From Acidobacteriota bacterium (GTDB lineage Bacteria > Acidobacteriota > Terriglobia > UBA7540), in NCBI GenBank assembly GCA_902812365.1, contig CADDZC010000007.1, positions 1 to 64,000 on the forward strand: 64,000 nt of DNA, written 5' to 3'. Under the pieces are notes generated by a model, which saw only the letters and a program-made list of their open reading frames with translations, was not told the origin of the DNA and ran no database searches. Positions 4,168 to 47,108 of this stretch are shown piece by piece. A program made the position numbers and the translations under genes. Numbering within the stretch: the first letter of the stretch is position 1; each line of letters starts with the position of its first letter.

Positions 4168-4489
4168 GGTGGAAGGGAGGCTCAGCGGGCCGTGGGTGGC
4201 CGAACTTGAACACAGTTGGAATGAATTCCTCAAGGAGGGGATGGCACCGAGCGTACAGGTTGACCTGTCCGAGGTAACGTCGGTCAGCTCGGAAGGCAAG
4301 CAGTTACTCCGGCGGATGTGGGAGCAAGGAGCGAAGCTTCAGAGCCGCTCGCTGATGACGCAATTCATTCTCAACCAAATCAGGAAGGAGATGAAAGGAA
4401 AGCGGTCAGGCGGAGAAGGAGGGCGCGATGGGTTCGGGCACAGAGCTGAAAGCCGTGGGACGGTGCGCGGGGTGCACCGTCAAATCTGA
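4121..4489 (+). CDS. Small STAS/anti-sigma-antagonist-like protein
   Basis: A 122-residue protein whose first 90 residues have a short beta-alpha pattern (LRITLVREAELSTLKVEGRL, then VQVDLSEVTSVSSEGKQLL) like STAS-domain anti-sigma-factor antagonists. The phospho-site Ser of SpoIIAA-type proteins may correspond to VSSEGKQL. A GGAGG ribosome-binding site lies about 9 bases before the ATG. The Gly/Arg-rich tail (from about residue 93) overlaps the first 62 bases of the Crp/Fnr gene and is probably not structured. It could belong to a partner-switching pathway, but no RsbW-like kinase is seen in the window. Confidence 0.65.
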   Translation: MLRITLVREAELSTLKVEGRLSGPWVAELEHSWNEFLKEGMAPSVQVDLSEVTSVSSEGKQLLRRMWEQGAKLQSRSLMTQFILNQIRKEMKGKRSGGEGGRDGFGHRAESRGTVRGVHRQI

Positions 4490-5144
4490 AGGCCTCTTTT
4501 GTGATCTGGGCATCGGGGCCTTGCAAGAGCTCAGCCGTATCAGAGTGGAGAGTAGTTATCCGAAAGGAGCGCGGCTGTTTGAAGAGCAAGATGCGCCGGG
4601 CGGAATCTATATCCTTTGCCAGGGACGCGTGAAACTCTCGATGACCTCGAGCGAGGGCAAGAGTGTGATTTTGCGCATTGCCGAACCCGGCGAAGTGCTG
4701 GGCCTGCATGCCGCAGTTTCAGGCCGTCCTTACCAGGCGAGAGCCGAGACCCTCGAGCCCTCCGTCGTCAGCTTCGTGCGACGGGAAGACTTCCTGCGTT
4801 TTCTCCAGGAAAACCCGGAAAGCTCGCTGCGGGCGGCCCAGCAGCTCAGCCGGAATTACCAGTCGGCTTGTGAGCGGGTGCGGTCGCTGGGTCTGGCACA
4901 CTCGGCGGAGGGGAAGTTGGCTGGATTTTTGCTCCTGTGGGCCACCAAGGGGCGCCCGAGCCCCCAGGGTACCCGGGTGGTGCTGGCCCTCACCCACGAG
5001 GAAATTGGGCAGATGATCGGCCTGTCTCGGGAAACGGTGACGCGCACCATGAGCGACTTCCAACGCCGGCAGCTCGTGGCCAGGCGCGGAGCGACGCTAG
5101 TAATCCAAAACAAAGACGCCCTCGCGCAATTTGCCGGAATCTAG
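4428..5144 (+). CDS. Crp/Fnr-family transcriptional regulator with FNR-like cysteines
   Basis: A 238-residue regulator with an effector (cyclic-nucleotide-binding fold) domain at about 30-150 and a C-terminal winged helix at about 170-236. Cysteines at 13, 16 and 25 (CAGCTVKSEGLFC) and at 64 could hold an Fe-S cluster, although the spacing (C-x2-C-x8-C) differs from E. coli FNR (C-x2-C-x5-C). The canonical cAMP phosphate-binding motif is not evident. The recognition helix LSRETVTRTM keeps the Arg-Glu...Arg pattern that E. coli CRP uses to read GTGA, which fits the TGTGA-N6-TCACA sites at 646, 5258, 16353, 16914, 16936 and 18368. A strong GGAGAAGGAGG site precedes the ATG. Likely a redox or NO sensor controlling the local respiratory genes (inference). 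Confidence 0.9.
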   Translation: MGSGTELKAVGRCAGCTVKSEGLFCDLGIGALQELSRIRVESSYPKGARLFEEQDAPGGIYILCQGRVKLSMTSSEGKSVILRIAEPGEVLGLHAAVSGRPYQARAETLEPSVVSFVRREDFLRFLQENPESSLRAAQQLSRNYQSACERVRSLGLAHSAEGKLAGFLLLWATKGRPSPQGTRVVLALTHEEIGQMIGLSRETVTRTMSDFQRRQLVARRGATLVIQNKDALAQFAGI

Positions 5145-5257: not shown

Positions 5258-5273
5258 TGTGATCGCCGTCACT
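5258..5273. promoter_or_regulatory. CRP-type palindrome B
   Basis: TGTGATCGCCGTCACT matches the TGTGA-N6-TCACA pattern at 9 of 10 fixed positions. It lies 95 bases upstream of the lone effector-domain gene at 5368 and downstream of the Crp/Fnr gene. Confidence 0.5.
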
Positions 5274-5900: not shown

Positions 5901-8291
5901 ATGGTGAAGACTGATTATCAAGCAAACGCTCAGCCGCCGGCCGGGCTCTTGTCCTCAGACGAACTCAGAAAGGTCCATGCCTACTGGCGGGCAGCCAATT
6001 ACCTCTCGGTAGGCCAAATCTATCTTTATGAGAACCCGTTGCTGCGCGAGCCGCTCAAGCCAGAGCACATCAAGCCGCGCCTGCTCGGCCACTGGGGCAC
6101 GACGCCGGGCTTGAACTTTATCTACGTCCACCTGAACCGGCTGATCCGAACGTACGACCTCAACGTCATCTATATTACCGGCCCGGGCCACGGCGGCCCG
6201 GCGCTGGTGGCCAATACCTATCTGGAGGGGACCTACAGCGAGTTCTATCCCAACGTCCCGCAGGATGCCGAAGGGATGAAGCGACTCTTTAAGCAGTTCT
6301 CGTTTCCGGGCGGCGTGCCGAGCCATGCGGCGCCGGAAACCCCGGGCTCGATCCACGAAGGCGGCGAGCTGGGCTACGCCATTGCTCATGCTTACGGCGC
6401 GGCGTTTGATAATCCCGATCTGCTGGTCTGCTGCGTCGTGGGCGACGGAGAAGCCGAGACGGGGCCGCTTGCCGCGAGCTGGCATTCCAACCAATTCCTC
6501 AATCCCGCTCGCGACGGAGCGGTGCTGCCCATTCTTCACCTCAACGGGTACAAGATCAACAATCCCACCGTGCTCGGGCGGGTCAGCAACGACGAGCTCG
6601 GCGAGCTTTTTAGAGGGATGGGCTACAAGCCCTATTTTGTGGAAGGCGACCAGCCGGAAGCGATGCATCCGCTGATGGCCGGGACGCTTGAAACCGTGCT
6701 GCAGGACATTCGGACCATTCAAGATTCGGCACGCTCGAAAGGTTTCTCGGCTCGACCTGTCTGGCCCATGATCATCCTGCGTACCCCGAAGGGTTGGACG
6801 GGGCCGAAGGAAGTGGACGGGTGGCCCGTGGAGGGCACGTACCGAGCGCATCAGGTTCCGATTCCCTCGCCGCAAACCAACCCGGAGCACCTGAAGCTGC
6901 TCGAAGAATGGATGAAAAGCTACCGGGCCGAAGAGCTGTTCGATGCTGAGGGAAAACTTCTTCCCGACCTGGCTGAATTGGCTCCAAAGGGCGAGCGGCG
7001 CATGGGCGCGAATCCCCATGCGAACGGCGGCGTGCTGCTGCGCGACCTAGTGATGCCGGACTTTCGGGACTATGCCGTCACCGTCCCCAAACCGGGCACG
7101 GCCACGGCGGAAGCCACGCGGGTGCTCGGCCAATTTTTGCGCGATGTGATGAAACTGAATCCCCGCAACTTCCGTGTGGTGGGCCCGGATGAGACCGCCT
7201 CGAATCGCCTCGGCGCCCTTTTTGAAGTCACCGACAAGGCCTTTATGGGCCAGATTCTGCCCACCGATGATCATCTTTCGCCCGATGGGCGCGTGATGGA
7301 GGTGCTGAGCGAGCACCTTTGCCAGGGTTGGCTCGAAGGATACCTCCTCACCGGCCGCCACGGCTTTTTCTCTTGCTACGAAGCCTTCATCCACATCGTC
7401 GACGCCATGTTCAACCAGCACGCCAAATGGCTGAAGGTGACGCGCCAGATTCCCTGGCGGCGGCCTATCGCTTCGCTCAATTATCTGCTTACGTCACATG
7501 TGTGGCGGCAGGATCATAACGGCTTCAGCCATCAAGACCCCGGCTTTATCGATCATGTGGTGAACAAGAAGGCGGATATCGTCCGCGTCTATTTGCCGCC
7601 CGATGCGAATACGCTGCTCTCGGTGGCGGATCACTGCTTGCGCAGCCGCCACTACGTCAATGTGATCGTCGCCGGTAAGCAGCCGGAACTTCAGTGGCTG
7701 GATATGGACGCGGCGGTGAAGCACTGCACGGCAGGCGTCGGCATTTGGGAGTGGGCCTCGACCGATCAAGGTGCCGAGCCGGATGTGGTGATGGCCTGCG
7801 CGGGGGACGTCCCCACGCTGGAAACGCTCGCGGCCGTCGACCTGCTGCGCCGGCGCTTCCCGGACATTAAGGTCCGGGTCATCAACGTGGTGGATTTGAT
7901 GACCCTTCAGCCCTCGACCGAACATCCGCACGGCCTCCCCGACCGGGAGTTCGATTCGATGTTCACAACCGATAAGCCTATCATTTTCGCCTACCACGGC
8001 TATCCCTGGCTCATCCATCGCCTCACCTATCGCCGTACCAATCACGCCAATCTCCACGTGCGGGGCTATAAAGAAGAGGGGACAACGACGACGCCTTTCG
8101 ATATGGTGGTGCTCAACGATCTCGACCGCTTTCATCTGGCCGGAGACGTCGTCGACCGCGTGCCGCGGCTCCAGCGCACAGGCGCTCACTTCAAGCAGTT
8201 TCTGCGCGAACGGCTTTTGGAACACAAACAATACATTTGCCGTTTCGGCGAGGATCGGCCGGAAATTCGCGAATGGAAATGGCCCTATTGA
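5901..8291 (+). CDS. xfp: Phosphoketolase (xylulose-5-P/fructose-6-P)
   Basis: A full-length 796-residue thiamine-diphosphate enzyme that cleaves xylulose 5-phosphate or fructose 6-phosphate with phosphate to acetyl phosphate plus a C3 or C4 sugar phosphate. Visible family signatures are [17 protein letters not shown] near residue 65, the GPGHGGPA segment, [20 protein letters not shown], and the TPP-binding [20 protein letters not shown]. No frameshift is seen. The acetate kinase gene starts 3 bases after the stop, so the pair forms an operon that converts sugar phosphates to acetate and ATP. It works in the cytoplasm and needs no respiratory chain, which fits the surrounding hypoxia/NO-type genes. 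Confidence 0.97.
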
Positions 8292-8294
8292 GGC

Positions 8295-9503
8295 ATGGAA
8301 ATTCTCGTCCTGAACGCCGGCTCGAGCAGCCTGAAAAGCACCCTCTACGATCTGACGGCTCCCCTTCCCGCCGAGCCGCCGAAGCCGGTGTGGGAAGGCA
8401 AGATTGAATGGGGTGACGCAGCGCCGTTGCGCGCCCACGGCGCGGAAGCGCCCAGAGGCGACTCGCCGGCCCGCTCGCATCGGGAGGCGACGGCTCATCT
8501 GCTCGGCCGACTCTGGTCTGCCCGCGCCGGAAGCCAATCCCTAAGCATTGCGGTGGTGGGCCACCGCGTCGTCCACGGGGGCTGGGAGTATATCCGTCCC
8601 ACGGTAATCACGCCCGAGGTGAAGGCCGGCATTCGCCGCCTGGCGGAATTTGCCCCACTCCACAATCCCGCCGCTTTGGAAGGCATCGAGATCGCCGAGT
8701 CACAACTGCCCTCAGTCCCCCAAGTGGCCGTCTTTGATACGGCATTTCACGCGCACTTGCCCGCCCTCGCCGCCATCTATCCCGGCCCATACGAGTGGTT
8801 TGAGCAAGGAATTCGCCGCTACGGCTTCCACGGCATCAACCACCGGTATTGCGCCGAGCGGGCGGCGCGGCTTTTGGGGCGGGACTTTAACACCTTGCGC
8901 CTGGTCATCAGCCATCTGGGCAATGGTTGCTCGCTCGCCGCCGTTGCGGGTGGAAGAAGTGTTGAAACCACAATGGGATTTACGCCCCTTGAGGGCCTGA
9001 TGATGGGGACACGCTCCGGATCAGTCGACCCGGGAATCCTGATCCACCTGATGCGACACGGAGGGCTAACCGCCGAGAAGCTGGATGCCGTGCTCAACCA
9101 GCAATCCGGCTTGCTCGGCATTTCCGGCATCTCCGGCGACATGCGGGAAGTTCTTGCTGCTATGAAGGCTGGAAACGCCCGCGCCCGGATGGCGTTTGAG
9201 CTTTATAGCTATCGGCTCGTCTACTATATCGGCGCGATGGCGGCTGTACTCGGCGGCCTTGACGCCCTGGTCTTCACCGCCGGCGTGGGAGAGAACTGCG
9301 CGGAACTGCGCGCCGCCACGTGTGAGCGGCTCGGCTTCCTGGGCCTTGCGATCGATCCGCGGACGAACGCGCAACCCGCTGCCAACCGCGATCGCGATAT
9401 AGCCACCGGTGAATCTTGCGCGCGTGTGCTGGTGATTCGCGCCCAGGAAGACTGGGCTATCGCCCGGGAGTGCTTCAACCTGATGAACGTCCCTCGGGCC
9501 TGA
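8295..9503 (+). CDS. ackA: Acetate kinase
   Basis: A 402-residue enzyme, the normal length for AckA. It begins MEILVLNAGSSSLKSTLYD, the adenosine/phosphate-binding signature, and has VGHRVVHGG, YGFHGINHRY, HLGNGCSLAAV and FTAGVGENCAELR motifs of the acetokinase family. It turns the acetyl phosphate made by the adjacent phosphoketolase into acetate and ATP. The gene starts 3 bases after the phosphoketolase stop, so the two are almost certainly co-transcribed. No phosphotransacetylase gene is present in this window. Confidence 0.97.
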   Translation: MEILVLNAGSSSLKSTLYDLTAPLPAEPPKPVWEGKIEWGDAAPLRAHGAEAPRGDSPARSHREATAHLLGRLWSARAGSQSLSIAVVGHRVVHGGWEYIRPTVITPEVKAGIRRLAEFAPLHNPAALEGIEIAESQLPSVPQVAVFDTAFHAHLPALAAIYPGPYEWFEQGIRRYGFHGINHRYCAERAARLLGRDFNTLRLVISHLGNGCSLAAVAGGRSVETTMGFTPLEGLMMGTRSGSVDPGILIHLMRHGGLTAEKLDAVLNQQSGLLGISGISGDMREVLAAMKAGNARARMAFELYSYRLVYYIGAMAAVLGGLDALVFTAGVGENCAELRAATCERLGFLGLAIDPRTNAQPAANRDRDIATGESCARVLVIRAQEDWAIARECFNLMNVPRA

Positions 9504-13265: not shown

Positions 13266-13781
13266 CTACCGGAACGGCTTGGAAAATGCTCGAAGCCGCC
13301 TTGCGGTCGCCACCACGATAAATACAGCCGGCGTGCCCAGGACAAGATGGGCTCGCGGCTGATGATAGCGCGCCGCCTCGATCAGCAGCAGAAGGCCCGC
13401 CAGCAGGATAAGCGCCAGCGAAATGCCCCGGTGGAAGCGGCCGAGTTCCGATTCAATCCAGGGACCCATTTCACGCTCAATTTCGCGTCCGTTACGAGAA
13501 TCCGTACACTGCGGTTTGATCCGGCACGCATTGCAAGCGTGGGCCGGGGCTTTGTACCGGATGACACGCCGGTCCTCATCGGTAACGCTGCGGTGCAAAT
13601 AATGGCCACTGGGACATTCCCAGCGGTCCAACTCGTCATGAAACGTGAAGCCGCCCAGCTCGTATTGCTGGGAGCGGCAATGAGAATGAACGGCAAGCCG
13701 CTCGAGCACGCCCGCTGCAATCATGAGAAACAAAGCGTACCCGGCGGCGAACAACACCTCGGACGGTATGGACTCCACCAT
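13266..13781 (-). CDS. Membrane protein with a transposase-type cysteine ribbon, linked to norZ
   Basis: A 171-residue protein starting 1 base after the norZ stop codon (TAA, C, ATG), so the two genes are co-transcribed. Residues 6-27 form one hydrophobic helix and about 118-160 form two more. Between them is WECPSGHYLHRSVTDEDRRV then YKAPAHACNACRIKPQC. The order CPxGH...CxxC-x4-C matches the zinc-ribbon-like segment found before the DDE domain in IS1182-type transposases (DDE_Tnp_1_6), here without any catalytic domain. The Cys/His set could bind Zn, Fe or an Fe-S cluster. The C-terminus ends 8 bases from an IS3 remnant and may have been trimmed by it. Function unknown; an accessory role in NO reduction is inference. 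Confidence 0.75.
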   Translation of the reverse strand: MVESIPSEVLFAAGYALFLMIAAGVLERLAVHSHCRSQQYELGGFTFHDELDRWECPSGHYLHRSVTDEDRRVIRYKAPAHACNACRIKPQCTDSRNGREIEREMGPWIESELGRFHRGISLALILLAGLLLLIEAARYHQPRAHLVLGTPAVFIVVATARRLRAFSKPFR

Positions 13782-13782
13782 G

Positions 13783-16068
13783 TTATTGCTGCGGGACTTC
13801 GATTACATCTGTGAAGAGCACGTCGGCAGCTTCTTCGGCGGCGGCTGGTCTTGCATGCCGGATCCCCAGCCAGCTGAGGTAAACCAGCGGGAGAACGCCG
13901 CCCAAGATGAAGAGTACGTCGCCCGGCAGCCGCAACCATTCGATCACGCGGTTGGTGGGCGCTGTCACAAACTTCAGCGTTCGCGCATCGTAATACCCGC
14001 TGCTTACTGAGTGATAGAGCTGAACCATTCCCAGCGGCAGGAGCGTGGCAAATACCATCCACACCAAACCCAGATTGAGCGACCAGAAGCTGACTTTTGC
14101 AGCCCGCTCCGGCCAAGACGCTTCGCGTACGATATAGCGAAGGCAAAAGAGCGCCAGAGCGACGGCCAGCATTCCGTAAACGCCCATCATGGCCGCATGG
14201 CCGTGGTTGGCCGTCAGCGCTGTACCGATCTCATAGTACGAGACAATGGGTAGATTAATGAGGAAGCCGAAGATTCCTGCCCCGAGGAAGTTCCAGAAGC
14301 CCACGGCCGCCAGAAACATCACGGACCAATAGTGAGGAAAGGGCGTGCGGGACCGGGCACCTTGGCGGGCGCCGAGTTGCAGAAAGCTCCAGGCTTCAAG
14401 CGTCAGGAAAGTGAGTGGAATGACCTCGGCGGCAGAAAAGAACGCGCCGAGTGCCATGTGGACGGAAGGCTCGCCTGAGAAATAGACATGGTGCATTGTA
14501 CCGATAATGCCTCCGGCAGAGTAGAGTACAATATCGAGGTAGATGAGGCCAAGTGCCACCCGCTCCCGCACGATGCCTAGCAGCACGAAGATATATGCCA
14601 CCATGACCGTCGTGAACAACTCAAGAAAATCTTCCACCCATAAATGCACGACCCAAAACCGCCAGTAATCGGTGGTGGTGAAGTTCGAGCTCGGCCGAGC
14701 CAGCAAGCCGACCGCGTAGAAGGTTGGAATTGAAAGTGCCGAGAAGAAGAAAAGCCAGGGCATATTGCCGCGATGCTCGATGCTGAGCCGCAAACGCAAG
14801 CCGCGAAACAAAATCACCACCCAAAAAAAGAGTCCCAGGCTCAGCAGGATCTGCCAGAAGCGGCCCAAGTCCAGGTATTCAAAACCCTGGTCGCCAAACC
14901 ATGACCAGGCGCGCGAGATCCATCCTTCAATGCCCGCCATTTCACCGATCAGGCTCCCAAACACCACAAGCGCGAGCGCCGCCAGCAGCGCGTAAGCCAG
15001 CCAATGCTGCCGCCGTGGCTCGCGGCCGGCAATCATCGGCGCCAGGAAAATGCCCGCTGCCAAATAGGATGTTGCAACCCAGAAAATCGCCAGTTGCACA
15101 TGCCAGGTACGGGCCAGATTAAATGGCAGCCACGTGTTTAAGTGGAGTCCAAAGAAACTTGAAATGTCTGCGCGGTAATGCTGCGACGCGCCCCCGAGCA
15201 AGGTCTGGACGAGAAAGAGCATCGCCATGACAAAGAAGAACCAGGCGGAAACGCGTTGCGCAGGCGTCAGGGGGACCTCTCCGGGCCGTTTGAAAGAAAC
15301 GGCTCTGCGCTCGGCGCCGTGCCAGCCGAGGAACTGCCAGCGGCCAAATGCAAACAGGAGAATGCCGATGCCGCCGAGTAAGGCGATTAGGGAAAGCACG
15401 CTCCAGACCACCATGTCTGCCGTGGGATGATTGCCCACCAGCGCTTCGGGCGGCCAGTTATTGGTGTAGGAATAGCTCTTGCCGGGGCGCATTGCCGCGG
15501 ACGCCCATGCCGACCAGGCAAAGAAGGCTGTAAGCTTGCGGATGCTTTCCAAATCGCGGATGGCTTCCGGCCGCAAGCCATGGTTGCTGCTGGTTTGCCC
15601 AAAATAAATTTGATAGTAGCTGCACAACTGCGTGAACGCCGCGGCCTGCGCGATGGTAAACGTCAAAGTTCCCGTAGCGGAATCGTAGCGATTGGTCTTG
15701 AAATCAGCGAGCGTTTGCGCCTGGGCGCGGTCCCAACCCATCTGGCGGTAGAAATCACGCACCATCCAGGCCGCCCGGTGCAGATAGTCGGCCGTGAAGT
15801 CGGGACCCAGATAGGCGCCATGGCCGAAAATGGAGCCATACTCCATCAGACCGTTGCGGAGGAAAATGCCCTGCCCTTCGAGAATGTCGGCACGCGTAAA
15901 AAGCACCCGACCGCTCGGATCAGCAACTTCAGGCGGGATTGGAGGCTCGCCGGTATAGGTGCGATAGGCGAGAAAGCCCAGCACAAAGAACCCGAACAGA
16001 AGCACGATGATCACCGCCTGAACCCAGCCGTTCGCAACCAATAGTGCCCGCTTTGAACTCGCTGTCAT
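13783..16068 (-). CDS. norZ: Quinol-dependent nitric oxide reductase (qNor)
   Basis: A 761-residue inner-membrane enzyme that reduces 2 NO to N2O with quinol electrons. AAGGAGGA lies about 10 bases before the ATG at 16068; the open frame continues 70 codons upstream but that part is not family-like. The N-terminal extension typical of single-subunit qNor is present and a NorC-like haem c motif (CxxCH) is not. NorB catalytic features are intact: HLWVE near residue 470 (FeB His and the conserved Glu), HHVYFSGEP near 525 (two FeB His), AAEVIPL near 545 (second Glu) and NHGHAAM near 620 (haem His pair). About 14 helices. It could also serve for NO detoxification rather than denitrification, since no nitrite reductase is seen. 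Palindrome C lies 285 bases upstream. Confidence 0.95.
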   Translation of the reverse strand: MTASSKRALLVANGWVQAVIIVLLFGFFVLGFLAYRTYTGEPPIPPEVADPSGRVLFTRADILEGQGIFLRNGLMEYGSIFGHGAYLGPDFTADYLHRAAWMVRDFYRQMGWDRAQAQTLADFKTNRYDSATGTLTFTIAQAAAFTQLCSYYQIYFGQTSSNHGLRPEAIRDLESIRKLTAFFAWSAWASAAMRPGKSYSYTNNWPPEALVGNHPTADMVVWSVLSLIALLGGIGILLFAFGRWQFLGWHGAERRAVSFKRPGEVPLTPAQRVSAWFFFVMAMLFLVQTLLGGASQHYRADISSFFGLHLNTWLPFNLARTWHVQLAIFWVATSYLAAGIFLAPMIAGREPRRQHWLAYALLAALALVVFGSLIGEMAGIEGWISRAWSWFGDQGFEYLDLGRFWQILLSLGLFFWVVILFRGLRLRLSIEHRGNMPWLFFFSALSIPTFYAVGLLARPSSNFTTTDYWRFWVVHLWVEDFLELFTTVMVAYIFVLLGIVRERVALGLIYLDIVLYSAGGIIGTMHHVYFSGEPSVHMALGAFFSAAEVIPLTFLTLEAWSFLQLGARQGARSRTPFPHYWSVMFLAAVGFWNFLGAGIFGFLINLPIVSYYEIGTALTANHGHAAMMGVYGMLAVALALFCLRYIVREASWPERAAKVSFWSLNLGLVWMVFATLLPLGMVQLYHSVSSGYYDARTLKFVTAPTNRVIEWLRLPGDVLFILGGVLPLVYLSWLGIRHARPAAAEEAADVLFTDVIEVPQQ

Positions 16069-16352
16069 AAAGTTTCGCTCCTCCTTTGTCTTGCTCGGGG
16101 ATAACCTGAACCTTCTGAGCTCTGCCAGGAAGTACCAGCCCCTTTCAGAGCACGGCTGGCCGGATGCTGGTGCGCGCACGATCGGCCCGCCGGGTTCGAG
16201 CCGGTGACTTGCCATTAAGTAACAAAACCAGCTTTGAAAGCAAGCGCCTTTACAGCAATCGAGAGCGCCTTGATGCATCTGTTTGTTTTACGCGACTGCA
16301 GCCCGCGGTCCCGGGCGAGTTTCTCGAATTTCCTTAGGGCCCAATCAGCATA

Positions 16353-16368
16353 TGTGATCTGCATCACA
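16353..16368. promoter_or_regulatory. CRP-type palindrome C, perfect
   Basis: TGTGATCTGCATCACA matches all ten fixed positions of TGTGA-N6-TCACA. It lies between divergent norZ (start 16068) and the small gene at 16447, 79 bases from the latter's start codon. Confidence 0.65.
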
Positions 16369-16913: not shown

Positions 16914-16951
16914 GGTGATTCAGGTCACAGCTCACTGTGATTCGGATCACA
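16914..16951. promoter_or_regulatory. Tandem CRP-type palindromes D and E, 22 bp apart
   Basis: GGTGATTCAGGTCACA (16914-16929, 9 of 10 fixed bases) and TGTGATTCGGATCACA (16936-16951, perfect). Their centres are 22 bp apart, two helical turns, so two dimers would sit on the same DNA face. They lie upstream of the decayed terminal oxidase genes, which therefore have kept their operators after losing their coding capacity. Confidence 0.65.
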
Positions 16952-17057: not shown

Positions 17058-18300
17058 TGCCTGAACCCGGAACCAATTCAAGCCTTGGCCTTCGCGGCAG
17101 CTGCTGTGGTTCCGGTGTATCTTCGCTACCGATCACGGGACGGTCGCGTTGCAATATTACGCGCTGGGATTGGGAGCCGCTCTGATCGCCGTGGCGCTTT
17201 CTGTGACCATGCGGTTGCATCTCGCCTGGCCCCGATTCGCTATTCCCCTGCTTGGGAGCCTGTCACCCACAGGAGCGCCTGGCGGCCTGATCAAACCGAA
17301 ATACTGCCTCTCGCTGCTCCCGCTACACGGAACTCTGATGACCTTTTTCGTCCTCAGCACCGTGCCGCAGGCTGGGTTTGGCAATTACCTGTTGCCCTTG
17401 CAGATAGGCGCACCGGAAATGGCCTTCCCGCGCCTCAATATGGCTTCCTTTTGGCTCACTGTGGCTTCGTTGCTTGTGTTGCTCTCTACGCTCTTCGTTT
17501 CCGACGGACCTCCAGTCTCTGGATGGACTGCCTACGCACCCTTAAGTGCGGTGGGGGGAATCGCAGGGCCCGGCGAAGGCTTGGGGCGAACACTTTAGCC
17601 TGTCTCGATCGGCACCTTTTGTGCTGCGTCCGTTTTGAGCGCTGTGACCTTCATCGTCACGACGGTGCTTTGCAGAACTCCAGGCATGAGTTTCGGGCGA
17701 TTGCTCCTCACGATGTGGGCGTGGCTGGTGACGGCCTTCTTGATCTTGCTTTCATTTTCCGTGCGATTTGCCGCTGATATTCCGCTTCTGCTGGACCAAC
17801 TCACGGGAACAGGTTTCTTTATTCCTACGGGATTGGTAGGCAGCGGGTTCATCGCCGAGGGAGGGGTTCTTCTTTGCTTTGGCGGCACCTCTTTCGGTTT
17901 TTTGGTCATCCCAAGGTATCCATCACCATCCTGCCCGGAACGGCCGTGGTCCCGCACGTGTTATGGTTTTTTTCGGAAGCCGGTCTTTAGCTATCGTGAA
18001 ATTGCCGCTGCGTCTTTCGAGCTCTTCCAAGTGAAGTTCTGGATCGCCGAGACCCGCCCCAGGCTCGGCCTCGCCCGGAATCCGCGGGGCAATTCTCTGT
18101 TTGGAGCATTGTTCTTTGTGTTGACCGGGTCCGTCTCGCTTCAAGTGATTGCGGGCATTTTGTGCTTGCTCTTTGTCGCGCGCACACTTGCTTTGCGGCA
18201 AGCCGACGCGGCAGCCGCCGAGTTGGCCGCGCTTGATTGGTAATCTGCCGCCGGCCTCTGGCTTATCACGTTTTTCCTGCTCATCCTACCCTCAACCTTC
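17058..18300 (+). pseudogene. Decayed aa3-type cytochrome oxidase: ctaD fragment joined to ctaE end
   Basis: Pieces of subunit I appear in order: IFATDHGTVALQYYALGLGA, then LHGTLMTFFVLSTVPQAGFG, NMASFWLTVASLLVLLSTLF, and VSGWTAYAPLSA, then a TAG at 17596-17598 replacing the usual Trp. The same frame goes on with SAVTFIVTTVLCRTPGMSFG. Near 17860 the homology shifts frame (LLWRHLFRFFGHPKVSITIL, the HPEVYI region), then shifts back near 17970 (FRKPVFSYREIA). After this the text becomes subunit III: SLFGALFFVLTGSVSLQVIA...ELAALDW, ending in a stop near 18243 with degenerate helix sequence beyond. At least one nonsense codon, two or more frameshifts and a deletion joining ctaD to ctaE. The two ends given are approximate. 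No functional product is possible. Confidence 0.85.
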
Positions 18301-18367: not shown

Positions 18368-18383
18368 TGTGATATGGATCACG
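18368..18383. promoter_or_regulatory. CRP-type palindrome F
   Basis: TGTGATATGGATCACG matches 9 of 10 fixed positions. It lies 163 bases upstream of the cytochrome-barrel gene at 18547. The remaining bases from 18301 to 18546 hold no gene I can support. Confidence 0.55.
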
Positions 18384-18546: not shown

Positions 18547-19914
18547 ATGAGTAGAAGAGCGACGATGGTGTGGTGGGTCACCCTCATTTCCGCGTCTTTG
18601 GGTTTTATAGGACTATTATGCCGGGCAACGCAGGTCGACGCGGTGCCAAGCTATGCGCGGCAGACAGCTTTGGCGTGCAGCGCCTGCCATACCACGCCGC
18701 CCGAGCTGACGCCGCTTGGCCGGCAGTTTAAGCTGAATGGATATACGATGACCGGCATCAAAACCATCACTTCTAAGGCAGGCCATGAGAACGCCCCGTT
18801 AAGTCTGCTCAGCGAGCTTCCGCTCTCGGCGCAGCTGACCGTGTCGAACACCAATACCCAGCGGCCTGAACCCGGCACGCAGAACGGAAGCTTCGAGCTT
18901 CCCCAGACTGCCAGTCTTTTTCTTGCCGGCGCCATGGCGAATCACGTCGGCGGTTTCATCCAAGTCACCTATAGTGGTCAAGCGGACCATTTCGCCTGGG
19001 ATATGACGGACATTCGCTACGCTAATGACCGGACCTTGTTTGGCAAGGACTTTGTATACGGAATCGACTTCAATAACAATCCTACAGCGGAGGATTTATG
19101 GAATGACACGCCGGCATGGGGCTTTCCCTGGGTAAGCACCAACGCCGCGCCGACGCCCATCGCCACGCCGGTGCTCAACGGGCAGTTGGCTTCGGATGTA
19201 GCTGGAGTTGGCGGATATGCTATGTTTGACCAGCACCTGTACGCGGCGGCTTTAATCTATCGTTCGGCGCACTTGGGACTCTCTCAGCCCAACCCAGGGA
19301 CAGGATTCGGATTTAATATTCAGGGGGCGGCTCCCTATTGGCGCGTAGCATGGCAGCAAGCGCGCGGCAATGACTATCTTGAAGCGGGAACTTATGGCAT
19401 GCATCTGGCTTCCACTCCCAATGCGGTCATGGGCCCGCGCGACTATTTCACAGATCTCGGGGCTGATTTCCAGTGGGAGCATACGATTCCGTGGAAGACT
19501 CGGAACGACTTGCTAACGCTCCACGGCGACTACATTCACGAAAGCTCGGACCGTCTGGGGGCGGTGGCCTCCGGCGGGGCGGCATTCGCCTCCCATGACC
19601 TCAACTTCGAACGCCTCGACGCGGTCTATCACATTGGCAACCGATATTCGTTTGACGCCGGGCCCTTCCGGTTGACTGGAAGCACGGACCCCACCCTGTA
19701 TGCCCAAGCGCCGGTAAGCGGCAGTGTGACCGGAGATCCGCGAGCCGACGGTTACATTTTTAATGTCTCTTACTGGCCGGTGCAAAACATCCAGCTCGGG
19801 GTGCAATACACGGGCTATTGGAAATTCAACGGGCTCGGCGTGAATTACGATGGGGCGGGGCGCAACGCCTCGGCTAATAATTCGATCTATTTGATCGCTT
19901 GGTTTGTTTTTTAG
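18547..19914 (+). CDS. Monohaem cytochrome-outer-membrane-barrel fusion (Cyc2-like)
   Basis: A 455-residue exported protein. GGAGGA lies 5-10 bases before the ATG. After a signal peptide (about 1-32) comes VPSYARQTALACSACHTTPP with haem c ligands C44, C47 and H48, followed by LTPLGRQFKLNGY. The other 380 residues alternate polar and hydrophobic residues in many short strands with aromatic girdles, and the protein ends WFVF with a terminal Phe, as outer-membrane barrels do. One haem motif directly before a barrel is the design of Cyc2-type porin-cytochromes that take electrons from outside the cell, for example from Fe(II). The motif P-x-[FY]-A-R-Q-T...C-x-x-C-H is as I remember it for that family. 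The substrate is unknown. It is next to a cupredoxin-like gene and cydAB. Confidence 0.8.
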   Translation: MSRRATMVWWVTLISASLGFIGLLCRATQVDAVPSYARQTALACSACHTTPPELTPLGRQFKLNGYTMTGIKTITSKAGHENAPLSLLSELPLSAQLTVSNTNTQRPEPGTQNGSFELPQTASLFLAGAMANHVGGFIQVTYSGQADHFAWDMTDIRYANDRTLFGKDFVYGIDFNNNPTAEDLWNDTPAWGFPWVSTNAAPTPIATPVLNGQLASDVAGVGGYAMFDQHLYAAALIYRSAHLGLSQPNPGTGFGFNIQGAAPYWRVAWQQARGNDYLEAGTYGMHLASTPNAVMGPRDYFTDLGADFQWEHTIPWKTRNDLLTLHGDYIHESSDRLGAVASGGAAFASHDLNFERLDAVYHIGNRYSFDAGPFRLTGSTDPTLYAQAPVSGSVTGDPRADGYIFNVSYWPVQNIQLGVQYTGYWKFNGLGVNYDGAGRNASANNSIYLIAWFVF

Positions 19915-20005: not shown

Positions 20006-20746
20006 ATGACTTTAGGGCGAGTGAGAGGGGTCGGGGTGGTGGCCGTTGGTTTGACGCTGGTCGCGGCGGGGTGGGAAGATCCAAGCGCGGAGGCTGTTTC
20101 GGCCGCCATGGGCCAAATAAGCGGCAAGGTGTATTTCCAAGGGGTCAAACCCAAGCTGCCGGAAATCAGCATGGCGCAGGACCCCGTTTGCGCCTCCGAG
20201 CAGAAAGGGCCGGTGTATCCCGAAGACGGGCAGGTCAATGCCAATGGGACGCTGCCGAATGTCTTCGTGTACGTGAAGTCGGGACTCGCTGGACGGACTT
20301 ATCCGGCTCCATCCGCGCCGGTGACTCTCGACCAAAGGCGCTGCGAATATGTGCCGCACGTGCTGGGTATTATGGTGGGGCAGCCGTTCAAGGTGGTTTC
20401 ATCGGATCCCACGACGCATAATATCCACGTGATGGCGATCTATAACCGCTCGTGGAATGTCTCCCAGCAACCCGGGTCGCCGCCCGTGATCAGGCGCTTT
20501 ACCCACCCCGAGATTATGATCTCCGTCAAATGCAATCAACACCCTTGGATGAAGGCTTACATCGGCGTCACCGGCAATCCCTTTTACGCCGTAACCGGCC
20601 GCGAAGGCGCCTTTACGATCACGAACCTCCCTGCGGGCCACTACACGCTCGAAGCATGGACTGCCACCTTCGGGAAACAAGAGAGGGAGGTAACGGTCGA
20701 GGCGGGCAAGACCTCTAAGGCAGACTTTACCTTTAGGGGACAGTGA
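20006..20746 (+). CDS. Periplasmic cupredoxin-like protein with carboxypeptidase-regulatory-like end
   Basis: A 246-residue exported protein (hydrophobic leader about residues 7-35). Candidate copper ligands are H138 or H141 (TTHNIHV), C176, H179 and M182 (KCNQHPWM), the plastocyanin-like Cys-x2-His-x-x-Met order. C62 and C113 could form a disulfide. The C-terminal 50 residues (GREGAFTITNLPAGHYTLEA) are a beta-sandwich of the carboxypeptidase-regulatory type. Likely an electron carrier or a metal-binding protein in the periplasm. It lies 91 bases after the cytochrome-barrel gene and 160 bases before cydA on the same strand. The ligand set differs from the type-1 copper spacing in plastocyanin (C-x2-H-x4-M), so copper binding needs testing. 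Confidence 0.8.
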   Translation: MTLGRVRGVGVVAVGLTLVAAGWEDPSAEAVSAAMGQISGKVYFQGVKPKLPEISMAQDPVCASEQKGPVYPEDGQVNANGTLPNVFVYVKSGLAGRTYPAPSAPVTLDQRRCEYVPHVLGIMVGQPFKVVSSDPTTHNIHVMAIYNRSWNVSQQPGSPPVIRRFTHPEIMISVKCNQHPWMKAYIGVTGNPFYAVTGREGAFTITNLPAGHYTLEAWTATFGKQEREVTVEAGKTSKADFTFRGQ

Positions 20747-20905: not shown

Positions 20906-22276
20906 GTGAGCGCCATGGTTGATGCCGTATTTGCCCACAGAATCCAGTTTGCCTTCACGGTGATGTTCCACTATCTGTTTCCGATCCTCACCATGGGGCT
21001 CGGTTTCTTCATCGCCATCTTATCCAGTATGCATCTGGCAACCGGTGACAAGCGGTACGCCACCGCCGCCCGATTTTGGGCCCGGATTTTCGCCATCAAT
21101 TTTGCGTTGGGAGTCGTCACGGGCATTCCGCTGGAGTTTGAATTTGGTACCAACTGGAGCCGCTTCTCGGCCTTTGGCGGGGGTGTGTTCGGGCAGACCT
21201 TGCCACTGGAGGGCGTTTACGCCTTCTTTCTCGAATCAGGATTCTTGGGCTTGTTTCTCTACGGCGAAGGCCGGGTGCCGCGCGGGGTGCATTGGCTGGC
21301 AGGTCTGGGCGTGTCGCTCGGGTCGCTGCTTTCGGGATACTTCATTGTGGCCACGGACGCCTGGATGCAACATCCGGTGGGATATGTCACGGACCCAAGC
21401 CGGGCGATCCGCCTGAAGTCATTCTGGGCTGTCCTGCTCAATCCCTACGCCGGCTGGCAATACGCCCACACCATCAACGGCGCGCTGCTGGCGGCGGCGT
21501 TTGTCATCGGCGGCATCGGCGCCTTTTACTTGCTTTCGCACCGGCATCAGGAATTTGCCCGGGTCGCGGTCAAGATGGCGGTGATTGCCGGGGCGGTGCT
21601 CTCACTGACGCAGCTTTTTCCCACCGGGGATTTCGACAGCCGCAATGTCGTAAAATACCAGCCGACGAAGCTGGCCACCATGGAGGGACTGTTCGAAACC
21701 GAAAAGGGCGCACCGCTTGCCATCATCGGCATGCCGGATACGCAACAAGGCCGGCTCATTGATCCGGTCTTCGTCCCGGAATTCCTGAGCTTTCTGGCTT
21801 ACGGTGATTTTCACGCCACGGTGAACGGGCTGAAAGCCTATCCAAGAGAGTTGTGGCCGCCCGTGGAGCTGACCTATTACGCCTACCACATCATGGTGGG
21901 GCTCGGAACGATCTTCATCGCCATCATGATCGTGGGGGTGTTTCTCCTCTGGAGACGGCGCTTATTTGAGTGTCGCTGGTACCTGTGGATTCTGATGCTG
22001 GCCCTGCCATTCCCCTATATTGCGAACGAAGCCGGCTGGGTAGTGGCCGAAGTCGGACGGCAGCCGTGGTTGGTCTACGGCTTGCTGAAGACAGCCGACG
22101 GAACCTCGGCCAATGTGGCGGTGGGCGAGACCGTGTTCACTACGCTCGGATTTGCGGGGACTTATCTGATGTTGGGAATCCTATTCCTTTTCCTGGTGGG
22201 GCGCGTGATTTACCAGGGACCAGGCGGGGATGTAACGGAAGTTCCAGAGAGCGTCGTCGCCCATCCGGCCGCTTAA
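20906..22276 (+). CDS. cydA: Cytochrome bd quinol oxidase subunit I
   Basis: A 456-residue inner-membrane subunit carrying the haems b558, b595 and d. Visible family text: AHRIQFAFTVMFHYLFP (the second His aligns with the axial His19 of E. coli CydA), FAINFALGVVTGIPLEFEFG TNW, FFLESGFLGLF, the quinol-site region and GRQPWLVYGLL. The Q-loop is of the short type. GAGAGGTGA upstream serves as ribosome-binding site. The oxidase reduces O2 with high affinity and tolerates NO, which fits a neighbourhood with NO reductase and a lost aa3 oxidase. cydB follows after 42 bases. Confidence 0.97.
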   Translation: MSAMVDAVFAHRIQFAFTVMFHYLFPILTMGLGFFIAILSSMHLATGDKRYATAARFWARIFAINFALGVVTGIPLEFEFGTNWSRFSAFGGGVFGQTLPLEGVYAFFLESGFLGLFLYGEGRVPRGVHWLAGLGVSLGSLLSGYFIVATDAWMQHPVGYVTDPSRAIRLKSFWAVLLNPYAGWQYAHTINGALLAAAFVIGGIGAFYLLSHRHQEFARVAVKMAVIAGAVLSLTQLFPTGDFDSRNVVKYQPTKLATMEGLFETEKGAPLAIIGMPDTQQGRLIDPVFVPEFLSFLAYGDFHATVNGLKAYPRELWPPVELTYYAYHIMVGLGTIFIAIMIVGVFLLWRRRLFECRWYLWILMLALPFPYIANEAGWVVAEVGRQPWLVYGLLKTADGTSANVAVGETVFTTLGFAGTYLMLGILFLFLVGRVIYQGPGGDVTEVPESVVAHPAA

Positions 22277-22318: not shown

Positions 22319-23329
22319 ATGAACATCGTCTGGTTTTGGACACTGGCGCTGATGCTTACGACCTACGCCGTGCTTGACGGGTACGACCTAGGCGCCGGGG
22401 CGCTGCATCTGTGGCTGGCGCGGGGCAACCAGGAGCGTCGCATTCTGCTCAATGCCGTCGGACCGGTGTGGAATGGGAACGAGGTCTGGCTCATTGCCGC
22501 GGGCGGTATGATGGTGGTGTCGTTTCCGAACGTTTACGCCGCAGGGTTTAGCGGCTTTTACCTCGCCCTGATGGTGGTGCTATGGCTGCTGATCTTGCGT
22601 GGAGTCTCCATCGAGTTTCGCAGCCAAATCGATCACGAGCTCTGGCGCGCCTTCTGGGACGCTGGTTTTTGCTTGGGCAGCTTGCTAATCGCTCTGCTGC
22701 TTGGCGTGGCGCTCGGCAACGTTCTGCACGGCCTGCCCATCGGGCCGAACGGCTATTTCCAGGGAACCTTTACGCTGCTGCTCAACCCCTATTCCATTCT
22801 TACCGGACTGTTGACCCTCGCCGTGCTCGGCTGGCACGGGACGAATTACCTGCGGCTGAAAACCTACGGAGATTTGCTCGCGCGGGCGCGCCGCTGGTCG
22901 CAGCAGCTTTGGGGGGCGGCGGCGTTGCTGGTGGTGGCCTCCACCGCGGCAACCTTGGGGTTGGTTCCCAGCACGCTCCGAAACTTCCACGCTCATCCGG
23001 TCACTCTCGTGTTTCCCTGGCTGACGCTTGCAGGTTTGGTGAGCGGCCTGCTCTCACGCCGGGAGCATGATCAGGCCGCCTTTCGCTCCTCGACAGCCGT
23101 GATTGTGGGGTTGCTCACTTCAGCGGCCGCCACCGCTTTTCCCAATTTGCTCCCTTCTACGCTTAATCCGGCGTACAGCCTCACGGTTTATAACGCCGCT
23201 TCCTCACCGTACGCCCTGCGCGCCTCGTTCATTGCCAACATCGTGGGTATGATCGGCGTGGCGCTCTACAGCGCGTACGTGCATCGCACCTTCCGCGGCC
23301 AGGTGCAGCTCGACGGCCACGGGTACTGA
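22319..23329 (+). CDS. cydB: Cytochrome bd quinol oxidase subunit II
   Basis: A 336-residue membrane subunit with about nine helices. It has the conserved start WFWTLALMLTTYAVLDGYDL GAGAL, then GPVWNGNEVWLIAAGG and FRSQ near residue 100, all typical of CydB. It assembles with CydA. No CydX-like short gene or CydDC transporter is recognisable nearby. Confidence 0.96.
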   Translation: MNIVWFWTLALMLTTYAVLDGYDLGAGALHLWLARGNQERRILLNAVGPVWNGNEVWLIAAGGMMVVSFPNVYAAGFSGFYLALMVVLWLLILRGVSIEFRSQIDHELWRAFWDAGFCLGSLLIALLLGVALGNVLHGLPIGPNGYFQGTFTLLLNPYSILTGLLTLAVLGWHGTNYLRLKTYGDLLARARRWSQQLWGAAALLVVASTAATLGLVPSTLRNFHAHPVTLVFPWLTLAGLVSGLLSRREHDQAAFRSSTAVIVGLLTSAAATAFPNLLPSTLNPAYSLTVYNAASSPYALRASFIANIVGMIGVALYSAYVHRTFRGQVQLDGHGY

Positions 23330-43964: not shown

Positions 43965-46900
43965 GTGCCTTCGAAGAAAGGGGAACCTTTGGCAAGTTTG
44001 CGCAATAATTGGTCTACGGGCAGATGGCTGCTGATCCTCGGTTTGGTACTCATCGCCAACAGCGCATGGATCGCGGCACTGAGTACCCCTGATATCTTTT
44101 ACGTAGGCAACGGGTTAATCCATCCCTTCCTTGGGATTGTCGTTGCCATTTTGGGACTCCGATTCATCCGTCAGCGCCGGAGCTGGTTCTCCGGCAAGAT
44201 TGCCGCTATTGCATTGATATTGCTGGGGATTTCAACGATTTTCGGCCTTTATTTGACCATCCTTGGGATGACTCGACCCCACAGCCTGGAGTTGTATATC
44301 CACGTTGGAACCATCCTGGGCGGCCTGTTCTTTCTGCTCGTCCATGCGTACACGAAGACCGTTCGGAATCGGGAGCCTCAGAGCCGAGACTTGGCGGGGG
44401 GTGGCGAGCTGGCGCCGGCAGGGGCGGGAACCGCTGTCGCGTCCGCATCGGGCGTGGAATCGCAATCCTTCTATCTGAGTCGTGGGATTTGGCGCTTGAT
44501 GGCGGCCGTTTCCGTGGGGTCATTGGCCTTTTACGGCGGAGCCGTTCTCGATCAGCATTTCTTTCCCAACCCTGAGTACGTCATCAAGAACCCGCCGACC
44601 GCCCCGCTGACTATGGATGAGGAAGGTGGGGGAGCCCACAGTTTTATGTTTCCGAGCTCCGCCCAGACGCCGGATAACAAACCGATCAAATCCGAGTTTT
44701 TCATGAATTCGGAGTCCTGCCGGCGCTGCCATCCTGACATCTATGCGCAGTGGCGAAGCTCGATGCACCATTTCTCATCCTTCAATAACCAATGGTATCG
44801 CAAGGCCATCGAGTACATGCAGGATACGATTGGCATTAAGCCATCGCTGTGGTGCGGCGGATGTCATGACCATGCGCTCGTCATCGCCGGTCAAATGCAA
44901 AAGTATCCGATTCGTCAGATTGAGGACACCGCCGCCGGCCAGAACGGCCTGGGTTGCATGTCATGCCATGCCATCGTTCACGTCGATAGCACGATGGGCC
45001 AGGGCGGGATCACCTTTGAATATCCAAAGCTGGCCGAGTTGGCCGAGAGCAAGAACCGGTTGCTGCGCTGGCTGCATGATTACGACGTCAAACTCAATCC
45101 GAAACCTCACCGCGAGGCCTTCCTGAAGCCCTTTCACCAGATTGGGAGTGAGACTCCCAAGTTCTGCTCGGCCTGTCATAAGGTCCACTTAGACATCCCT
45201 GTGAATCATTATCGCTGGCTGCGCGGCTTCGATGATTATGACAACTGGCAGGCCAGCGGTGTTTCCGGCTACGGCGCGCGATCCTTTTATTACCCGCCGA
45301 AGCCCCAGTCGTGCGTGGATTGTCACATGCCACTGGTGCCTTCGAGAGATTTCGGCAACATCCGCGGCTTCGTACATTCCCATCGCTTCGTCGCCGCGAA
45401 CACGGCCGTGCCGGCCTCGACCGGTGATGAACAACAGGTGGCGGAGGTTGAGCATTTCCTGCGGGGCGCCCTCAGCGTCGATATTTTCGCCCTGGCTGAG
45501 GAGCCGGGAGGCGGTGAGCGGACGGGGCCGGCAGGGCCAGGGGGTGAGAATCCGCAATTGTCGAGTACGTTCGCTCAGGGCGAGGAGTCATCCGGCGGTT
45601 TCGTGGCTCCCACCTCGGCTCTGAATGCTCCGACGAAGCTGATGGCCCCGATTGGACGGGCCGAGGCCGCGCTCCATCGAGGCCAAACGGTTCGCGTGGA
45701 GGTCGTGGTTCGAAACCGCAAGGTCGGCCATTTCTTCCCCGGCGGCACTGTGGATGCCTTCGACTGCTGGGTGGAGCTCCAGGCGCGCGACGATCGGGGC
45801 CGGATCATCTTCTGGAGCGGCGAGGCGGCGGAGAACGGCAAGGGGCCGGTAGACCCGGGCGCTCATTTCTACCGCTCCTTGCAATTGGACGCGCACGGCA
45901 ACGTCATCAACAAGCGCAACTCCTGGTCCACCCATGCCGCCGTCTACGCGCACTTGATTCCGCCCGGCGCGGCTGACACCGTCCACTTCCGGCTGCACGT
46001 TCCCGAGGACTGCGGTAGCCGGATCACCCTGACGGCCAAACTCAATTACCGCAAGTTCGACTGGTGGATCACCCAATGGTCCTTCGTTGGCGTCCGCGAC
46101 CCGTCGCAGCGTCATCCGCCCGTCAGCGCCAGTTACGACGACACGCGCTGGCTCTTCACGGGTGACTTTTCCCACGATGCGCCCAACATCGAGAAAAGGA
46201 TACCCGACGTGCCGATTGTCGTCATCGGCGAGAACACGGTGACCATTCCGGTGTTGCCCGGGAAAAGCGCCGCGTTTGTCGAATCCGTGAAGCTCGATCC
46301 GGCGGATTGGGAGCGCTGGAACGATTACGGCATCGGGCTCCTGCTCCAAGGTGATCTGAAAGGTGCCGAGCGGGCTTTTGAAAACGTCGTTTGGCTGCGG
46401 CCTCGGTACGCGGACGGATGGGTGAACATCGCCCGGGCGCTGATTCAGGAAGGTAACACGGATGCGGCCAAGCCCAACCTGGTGAGGGCGCTGGAGCTGG
46501 ATCCGCGCCTGGGGAGCGCGCATTACTTCTACGGGCTGGCGCTCAAGGCCGACGGAGATTACGCCGCCGCCTACCAGCAATTCGCAGCGGCCGCCGAGCG
46601 CTATCCGCTCGACCGCGTCAACCGCAACCAGATGGGGCGGATGCTGTTCTTGCAGAGAAAATATCGGGAAGCCATTGCCCAGTATGCAAAGACGATCGCC
46701 ATCGATCCGGAAGACCTAGAAGCCCATTACAACTTGATGCTATGCTATCGAGGGTTGGGAAACGACGCGCTGGCGAGCCGCGAAGAGAGGCTCTATTTGC
46801 GCTTCAAGGCCGACGAAGCGGCGCGCGCCATTACCGGGCCTTATGAGCTGGCGCATCCGGAAGACAACAACGAGGCTCAGCCGATCCACGAACATCAGTC

Positions 46901-47108
46901 GATTGCCGAGGAGCCGGCCTCCGTCTTCCACCCCTACGCCGCTTATGGCGAGCGGTGGCTGTGGCCGCCGGCCCGCCGTCCCGGGATCCTCGCCCGTTCC
47001 TCTCCTCAGCCACGCCTGAAGGCGGACGCGGCCGGGGGAACGCGGAGGGCGCAGCGCAAAGCGATCAACGGCCGGGACGCGGCTTCGAGGGCGTCTGCCG
47101 GACGGTGA
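43965..47108 (+). CDS. Membrane-anchored pentahaem cytochrome c with TPR domain
   Basis: A 1047-residue protein in four parts. Residues 20-135 hold three or four helices with His in NGLIHPFLGIVV and YIHVGTILGGLFFLLVHAY, possible haem b or quinone contacts. A further helix is at about 180. A periplasmic part has five CxxCH motifs: CRRCH (about 251), CGGCH (296), CMSCH (331), CSACH (401) and CVDCH (449), like cytochrome c554-type proteins. A beta-rich region spans about 560-760, then four or more TPRs (about 785-960, e.g. AERAFENVVWLRPRYADGW). Likely carries electrons from the quinone pool to or from the periplasm. The GTG start follows a palindrome. The ASPIC/UnbV gene follows after 34 bases. 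Confidence 0.85.
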   Translation: MPSKKGEPLASLRNNWSTGRWLLILGLVLIANSAWIAALSTPDIFYVGNGLIHPFLGIVVAILGLRFIRQRRSWFSGKIAAIALILLGISTIFGLYLTILGMTRPHSLELYIHVGTILGGLFFLLVHAYTKTVRNREPQSRDLAGGGELAPAGAGTAVASASGVESQSFYLSRGIWRLMAAVSVGSLAFYGGAVLDQHFFPNPEYVIKNPPTAPLTMDEEGGGAHSFMFPSSAQTPDNKPIKSEFFMNSESCRRCHPDIYAQWRSSMHHFSSFNNQWYRKAIEYMQDTIGIKPSLWCGGCHDHALVIAGQMQKYPIRQIEDTAAGQNGLGCMSCHAIVHVDSTMGQGGITFEYPKLAELAESKNRLLRWLHDYDVKLNPKPHREAFLKPFHQIGSETPKFCSACHKVHLDIPVNHYRWLRGFDDYDNWQASGVSGYGARSFYYPPKPQSCVDCHMPLVPSRDFGNIRGFVHSHRFVAANTAVPASTGDEQQVAEVEHFLRGALSVDIFALAEEPGGGERTGPAGPGGENPQLSSTFAQGEESSGGFVAPTSALNAPTKLMAPIGRAEAALHRGQTVRVEVVVRNRKVGHFFPGGTVDAFDCWVELQARDDRGRIIFWSGEAAENGKGPVDPGAHFYRSLQLDAHGNVINKRNSWSTHAAVYAHLIPPGAADTVHFRLHVPEDCGSRITLTAKLNYRKFDWWITQWSFVGVRDPSQRHPPVSASYDDTRWLFTGDFSHDAPNIEKRIPDVPIVVIGENTVTIPVLPGKSAAFVESVKLDPADWERWNDYGIGLLLQGDLKGAERAFENVVWLRPRYADGWVNIARALIQEGNTDAAKPNLVRALELDPRLGSAHYFYGLALKADGDYAAAYQQFAAAAERYPLDRVNRNQMGRMLFLQRKYREAIAQYAKTIAIDPEDLEAHYNLMLCYRGLGNDALASREERLYLRFKADEAARAITGPYELAHPEDNNEAQPIHEHQSIAEEPASVFHPYAAYGERWLWPPARRPGILARSSPQPRLKADAAGGTRRAQRKAINGRDAASRASAGR

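Follow-up and report, generated by a model that had tools for sequence, protein, structure and literature searches.

The window, by which we mean the whole stretch of 64,000 nucleotides that was analysed, contains a cyc2-like gene followed on the same strand by the gene for a predicted copper protein (cup). A coxA pseudogene, a nitric oxide reductase gene and several Crp/Fnr-type sites lie upstream of this pair, and the genes for a cytochrome bd oxidase lie downstream. The features of the region are listed here with the evidence for each in brackets.

4428-5144, + strand: Crp/Fnr regulator with N-terminal CAGC...FC cysteines and a CRP-like helix, SRETVTR (PF00027, PF13545, PF00325; sequence)
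13783-16278, - strand: qNOR-type nitric oxide reductase, divergent to the cyc2 block (PF22085 and PF00115; site at 16353)
16353-16368, unstranded: perfect palindrome TGTGATCTGCATCACA upstream of qNOR (pattern search)
16936-16951, + strand: perfect palindrome TGTGATTCGGATCACA upstream of the coxA pseudogene (pattern search; partner site 16914-16929)
17113-18243, + strand: coxA pseudogene, identifiable as far as about 18015 and followed by a degenerate tail like the end of subunit III (sequence comparison; intact counterpart in locus L034)
18368-18383, + strand: near-perfect Crp/Fnr-type palindrome TGTGATATGGATCACG, 179 bp upstream of cyc2 (pattern search)
18547-19914, + strand: cyc2-like gene for a 455-aa fused cytochrome-porin (open reading frame, homologues, tree, AF2 model)
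18547-18639, + strand: signal peptide, residues 1-31 (sequence; cleavage near VDA-VPSY placed by eye)
18640-18708, + strand: haem-c region AVPSYARQTALACSACHTTPPEL, residues 32-54, with CSACH at 18676-18690 (Keffer 2021 motif; C44, C47, H48, P52 and L54 invariant in 57 homologues)
18823-19908, + strand: predicted 16-stranded beta barrel, precursor residues 93-454 (AF2; Foldseek to OmpT/OmpU/Omp32/OmpF/OprO/OprP)
20006-20746, + strand: cup, predicted exported type-1 cupredoxin with a C-terminal carboxypeptidase-regulatory-like domain (CarboxypepD_reg; invariant ligands; Foldseek; linkage)
20906-22276, + strand: cydA, cytochrome bd oxidase subunit I, 160 bp after cup (PF01654, E 1.1e-150)
22319-23329, + strand: cydB, cytochrome bd oxidase subunit II (PF02322, E 1e-86)

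The cyc2-like open reading frame is intact from ATG to TAG, with a strong ribosome-binding site (GGAGGAAGACCA) 5′ of the start. Its product has a hydrophobic leader and a sole CxxCH, C44-S-A-C-H48, downstream of AVPSYARQTALA, and ends in ...YLIAWFVF; both the single haem c motif and the terminal Phe of the barrel named in the original prediction are therefore present. Cyc2 proteins have been recognised by an AxPxFAR[QK][TY] motif before CXXCH, a PXL four residues later, a minimum length of 365 residues and the presence of a porin domain (PMC8406198). The window protein reads AVPSYARQT, which agrees with AxPxFAR[Q/K][T/Y] at six of the seven defined positions and has a conservative F to Y change, and its one CXXCH is followed four residues on by P52-E-L54. 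The exact motif occurs in the nearest orthologues, and the Y is common to two others. Aligned with a known Cyc2, as had been suggested, the protein matched the rus-operon Cyc2 of Acidithiobacillus ferrianus end-to-end at 33% identity; this one pairwise comparison gave E 9e-52 (BLASTP threshold E <1e-5). Published Cyc2 sequences of A. ferrooxidans and Mariprofundus share 20% identity (PMC7029218).

Sixteen further full-length homologues, at about 46-76% identity, are found in relatives of the same order. The gene is the sole family member in its own 3.5-Mb, 96.7%-complete genome (statements about this whole genome rest on searches of it), and its type is uncommon across the wider phylum, occurring in 10 of 396 sampled genomes. 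The window protein differs at 5 of the 147 columns invariant in orthologues, where the other orthologues differ at 1-17, and dN is far below dS, indicating purifying selection. A chance open reading frame is ruled out by this conservation in relatives, because the 16 homologues, the invariant columns and the low dN all argue against it, and a degenerate cyc2 is ruled out by the intact selection. Searches of Pfam, NCBIfam and PDB sequences with the protein gave no match, weak PDB matches to cytochrome b559 being judged chance, and a search for viral copies of the gene found none.

AlphaFold2, given the mature protein with 56 homologues, produced a model (pLDDT 86.5, pTM 0.87) in which exactly 16 long strands accompany three short helices at the N terminus. 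Foldseek matched this model to 16-stranded porins including OmpU, Omp32, OmpF, OprP and OprO, of which OprP and OprO are the porins named for Cyc2 by Keffer et al. (PMC8406198). The strands and the porin matches thus predict a 16-stranded outer-membrane porin, the outcome anticipated for a structure prediction. The barrel proposed as 380 residues long is upheld as a barrel and comes to about 362 residues, close to the proposed size.

In a careful tree of 63 rows, the group of Gallionellaceae, Zetaproteobacteria and Chlorobium (cluster 1) is split at 100/100 from Acidithiobacillus Cyc2 and all others. Of the two sides, the window gene belongs to that of Acidithiobacillus, within an Acidobacteriota clade (100/100), in agreement with the earlier reading of a Cyc2-like gene in an Acidobacteriota-type genome; a neutrophilic Cyc2 of cluster 1 is ruled out by the same split. 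A quick tree of 118 rows gave the same placement. Long branches were left out of the careful tree, and an unrelated cytochrome row (L156_1970) and several long rows were removed beforehand. Because the reference sequences were picked with a DNA pattern that demands FARQTG, those without it are under-represented in the sample, from which Leptospirillum Cyt572 (cluster 3) is absent. Taken together, the motif with its F-to-Y change, the single CXXCH, the PXL, the length, the 16-strand porin and the full-length homology to a rus-operon Cyc2 follow the Cyc2 plan seen in the original prediction, and by sequence and predicted fold the window protein is a genuine member of the Cyc2 family.

The cupredoxin-like gene beside cyc2 also proved real. 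Pfam recognises the C-terminal CarboxypepD_reg domain of its product and no cupredoxin domain. The residues H138, C176, H179 and M182 are invariant in 12 sequences and also align in L069 and L151, two distant neighbours of other Cyc2 genes, and the model (pLDDT 80.8) was matched by Foldseek to NirK, amicyanin, plastocyanin and CuA domains. The protein therefore has the His, Cys, His and Met ligands of a type-1 cupredoxin on a cupredoxin fold, with a predicted copper site. Its C-x2-H-x2-M ligand spacing is that of amicyanin; the copper-ligand loop of rusticyanin is longer than the amicyanin type.

Of the 17 full-length cyc2 loci in the order, 11 have an intact cup next to cyc2. A relative of cup also lies less than 200 bp from six of eight Cyc2-like genes of a second type, which carry the motif IPAFARKY (FARKY-type); in the seventh it is about 1.4 kb off, and in the eighth the contig ends inside the gene. 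One FARKY-type gene (G018:C285) has a cupredoxin-type gene on both sides. Among the proteobacterial plasmid records examined, five of six cyc2-like genes are followed within about 1 kb by a c-type cytochrome gene, and the sixth has one upstream. Because cup is linked to two divergent cytochrome families, its linkage is better explained by function than by shared ancestry of one locus, an argument built on cyc2-cup loci that are not phylogenetically independent. The copper site and this conserved linkage suggest that cup is probably the periplasmic electron acceptor of Cyc2.

The oxidase remnant reported just upstream is a coxA pseudogene, which over positions 17113-18015 is 51% identical across about 331 aa to the intact coxA of relatives and has a TAG, a frame shift and a lost C-terminal part. 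An intact coxB-coxA-cyc2-cup set occupies the orthologous position (locus L034), on one strand with short gaps in the relative G015 (Pfam-supported), where a tblastx comparison with the window confines synteny to this block; in G034, coxB-coxA is convergent with cyc2-cup. The genes adjoining cyc2 vary among relatives, and include coxB-coxA (L034 and L038), Rieske-cytochrome b genes (L035-L037, L210-L212 and L214) and an alternative-complex-III-like set of molybdopterin, FeS, NrfD and cytochrome c proteins (L039 and L044, with the first subunit also in L041). Elsewhere in the window genome, a second copy of cup heads an intact operon of coxB, coxA, coxC, CtaA and a UbiA-family (CtaB-like) gene (G000:C34:24833-31431, equivalent to L202:4834-11432). 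A further COX1 is found on C13, and haem-handling Cytochrom_C_asm proteins are present. Two other stretches of the window deserve mention. A protein of 1047 residues with five CxxCH, a cytochrome c554-like part and TPR repeats is encoded at 43965-47108 (+ strand), unlinked to cyc2, and a fragment at 13266-13781 (- strand), between qNOR and a flippase-like gene, has a weak transposase DDE match and may be a mobile-element remnant.

The perfect palindrome TGTGA-N6-TCACA occurs three times in the 3.5-Mb genome, and all three copies are within the window (646, 16353 and 16936). With at most one mismatch, 6 of the 24 sites in the genome fall in the first 19 kb of the window (646, 5258, 16353, 16914, 16936 and 18368), a clustering for which the binomial estimate, calculated after the pattern was noticed, is about 3e-9. 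A universal-stress-like gene and a PAS/sigma54 regulator have sites of this type upstream, as do qNOR, the coxA pseudogene and cyc2, and sites with at most one mismatch are found upstream of cyc2 in five relatives (L034, L038, L039, L041 and L045). The Crp/Fnr protein encoded at 4428-5144, whose cysteines are FNR-like, is a candidate regulator that may bind these sites, since its CRP-like SRETVTR helix suits TGTGA; its gene and the sites would together make up a local Crp/Fnr-type regulon. The site at 5258 falls between its gene and a phosphoketolase, which is directly followed by acetate kinase (5901-9503); the closeness of this pair to the Crp/Fnr gene is suggestive of a programme for low oxygen or fermentation.

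Our favoured explanation, which we consider probable, is that the locus serves Fe(II) oxidation along a route from Cyc2 to the cupredoxin to an oxidase, with Fnr-like control. The cytochrome-porin would be located at the outer membrane, with a single c-type haem presumably attached to its short N-terminal segment at the periplasmic end of the 16-stranded barrel, a position taken from the published model of Cyc2. Fe(II) in solution would enter the pore and give one electron to the haem; we infer both Fe(II) as the donor and the direction of electron flow by analogy with characterised Cyc2. From the haem the electron would pass to the exported type-1 cupredoxin next door, which in view of its copper site and linkage could take the role of rusticyanin and Cyc1 of Acidithiobacillus, and from there to a CuA-type cytochrome c oxidase. 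In relatives this oxidase belongs to the same operon (coxB-coxA-cyc2-cup), and here the likely sink is the remote cupredoxin2-coxB-coxA-coxC-CtaA-CtaB-like operon. An Fnr-like member of the Crp/Fnr family that senses redox state or NO probably controls the module together with qNOR, so that it would be used at low oxygen. A search of the window genome for RuBisCO did not find it, so iron oxidation would be a source of auxiliary energy or a means of detoxification in a heterotroph rather than the basis of RuBisCO-based autotrophy.

Several observations count against the Fe(II) model. The haem segment of the window protein carries two conservative changes, F to Y and G to A, and the Cyc2 alignment, when a distal haem ligand was sought in it, revealed no universal one. 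Six of the 17 loci are without an intact adjacent cup, the local oxidase is dead, and most sequences near the window protein in the tree come from organisms not known as iron oxidisers (Burkholderia, Pseudomonas and Bradyrhizobium).

The main rival, which we regard as unlikely, is electron export at low oxygen, in which electrons would run from quinol through an alternative complex III or bc complex to the cupredoxin and would leave by way of the Cyc2 haem, with Fe(III) or some other extracellular acceptor receiving them. Quinol-oxidising complexes adjoin cyc2 in many relatives, cyc2 and cup were kept while the local oxidase was lost, and the Crp/Fnr-type sites, with their motif common to qNOR, suggest low-oxygen use; the Fnr-type site and the neighbouring qNOR could equally fit anaerobic export. 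Moreover, it has been proposed for A. ferrooxidans that Cyc2 works in both directions and acts as a ferric reductase under anaerobic conditions, and Acidobacteria are known iron reducers (PMC8790237). However, all three biochemically tested proteins of the Cyc2 family oxidise iron (PMC8406198), and a single haem in a narrow pore is ill suited to solid Fe(III). The coxB-coxA genes found with cyc2 in two relatives, and the second cup of the window genome in its oxidase operon, likewise speak for an oxidase at the end of the route.

It is quite improbable, in our estimate, that the same inward route through the cupredoxin is fed by something other than Fe(II); Mn(II), Cu(I), reduced humics and other small reductants are examples of such a donor. 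The clade is far from the tested proteins (33% identity), bacteria that are not known iron oxidisers commonly carry cyc2-like genes, and Keffer et al. caution that functional confidence hinges on closeness to a characterised Cyc2 (PMC8406198); yet no observation favours another donor, and the haem region ranks with the best conserved stretches of these proteins. Very improbable is a decaying locus in which cyc2 and cup are unimportant leftovers of oxidase loss, as might be suggested by the coxA pseudogene, by G030, which keeps only about 66 aa of cyc2, and by the cup reduced to about 28 aa beside cyc2 in G015:C452, whereas in the window both frames are intact, the conserved columns and copper ligands are kept, dN is well below dS and the upstream regulatory site is present.

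If Fe(II) oxidation is the function, a broader and more tentative proposal is that Acidobacteriota possess a distinct iron-oxidation module, in which two divergent Cyc2-type families would deliver electrons to a dedicated two-domain, amicyanin-like cupredoxin in place of Cyc1 and rusticyanin, under an Fnr-like switch at low oxygen or NO. This remains, in our view, possible rather than probable. The carboxypeptidase-regulatory domain of cup would perhaps dock the protein at the outer membrane or to Cyc2. The phylum is known chiefly for heterotrophs and iron reducers, and such a module would point to iron oxidation within it. Of the genes proposed as markers of iron oxidation by microbes, Cyc2 is the main one. 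Its use beyond known iron oxidisers is uncertain, and a periplasmic partner is known for only a minority of the family; a linked copper protein that recurs beside two divergent Cyc2-like families and beside oxidases offers a concrete two-protein test of electron transfer. The gene cyc2 is already known in Acidobacteriota, four MAGs with it having been reported (PMC10367259). The cupredoxin partner and the control region look new, and a non-exhaustive literature search found no report of the recurrent cupredoxin-cyc2 linkage, so the novelty rests on the module rather than on the gene alone.

Among the closest known systems is the rus operon of Acidithiobacillus, whose Cyc2 (cluster 2) shares with the window protein the single N-terminal haem, the FARQT-type motif, the PxL, the 16-strand porin and an aromatic last residue, although it forms a long branch separate from the window clade. 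Downstream of its cyc2, A. ferrianus has genes for a cytochrome c with two haem domains and for a cupredoxin, then coxB and coxA, and oxidase genes are likewise near cyc2 in relatives of the window organism. The rus-type layout of the original prediction therefore stands as far as the cupredoxin and the oxidase remnant are concerned, but the oxidase is intact only in relatives or elsewhere in the genome, the cupredoxin is a different one and no RuBisCO was found in the genome. A true rus operon (cyc2-cyc1-cup-coxBACD-rus) is ruled out by the lack of cyc1 between cyc2 and cup, the lack of rusticyanin-type spacing and the pseudogene state of the coxA upstream. Cup has no copper loop of the rusticyanin type and resembles the amicyanin/plastocyanin class, sharing with amicyanin the ligand set His...Cys-x2-His-x2-Met and matching it in Foldseek at E about 5e-5, but differs from that class in that its cupredoxin domain sits within a larger exported protein that carries CarboxypepD_reg at its C terminus. 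A conduit of the MtrAB/PioAB type is ruled out for the window gene by its one haem and fused 16-strand barrel. Cyc2 of cluster 1 (Mariprofundus PV-1, Gallionellaceae and Chlorobium) has the family motif and fold plan in common with the window protein, but its haem segments resemble CHFQHFPxLN where the window protein reads CHTTPPELTP, and the BLASTP match to a Gallionella protein is significant only over about the first 105 mature residues. The FARKY-type proteins of the same acidobacterial family (L020-L024, L028 and L030; also L050), for which a link to Leptospirillum Cyc572 has been suggested (PMC10654088), are absent from the window genome and are about 31-38% identical to the window protein over the first 40-60 residues only, but they share with it a single haem behind a motif of this kind (AxPxFARKY in their case), a length of about 450 residues and a cup-type neighbour.
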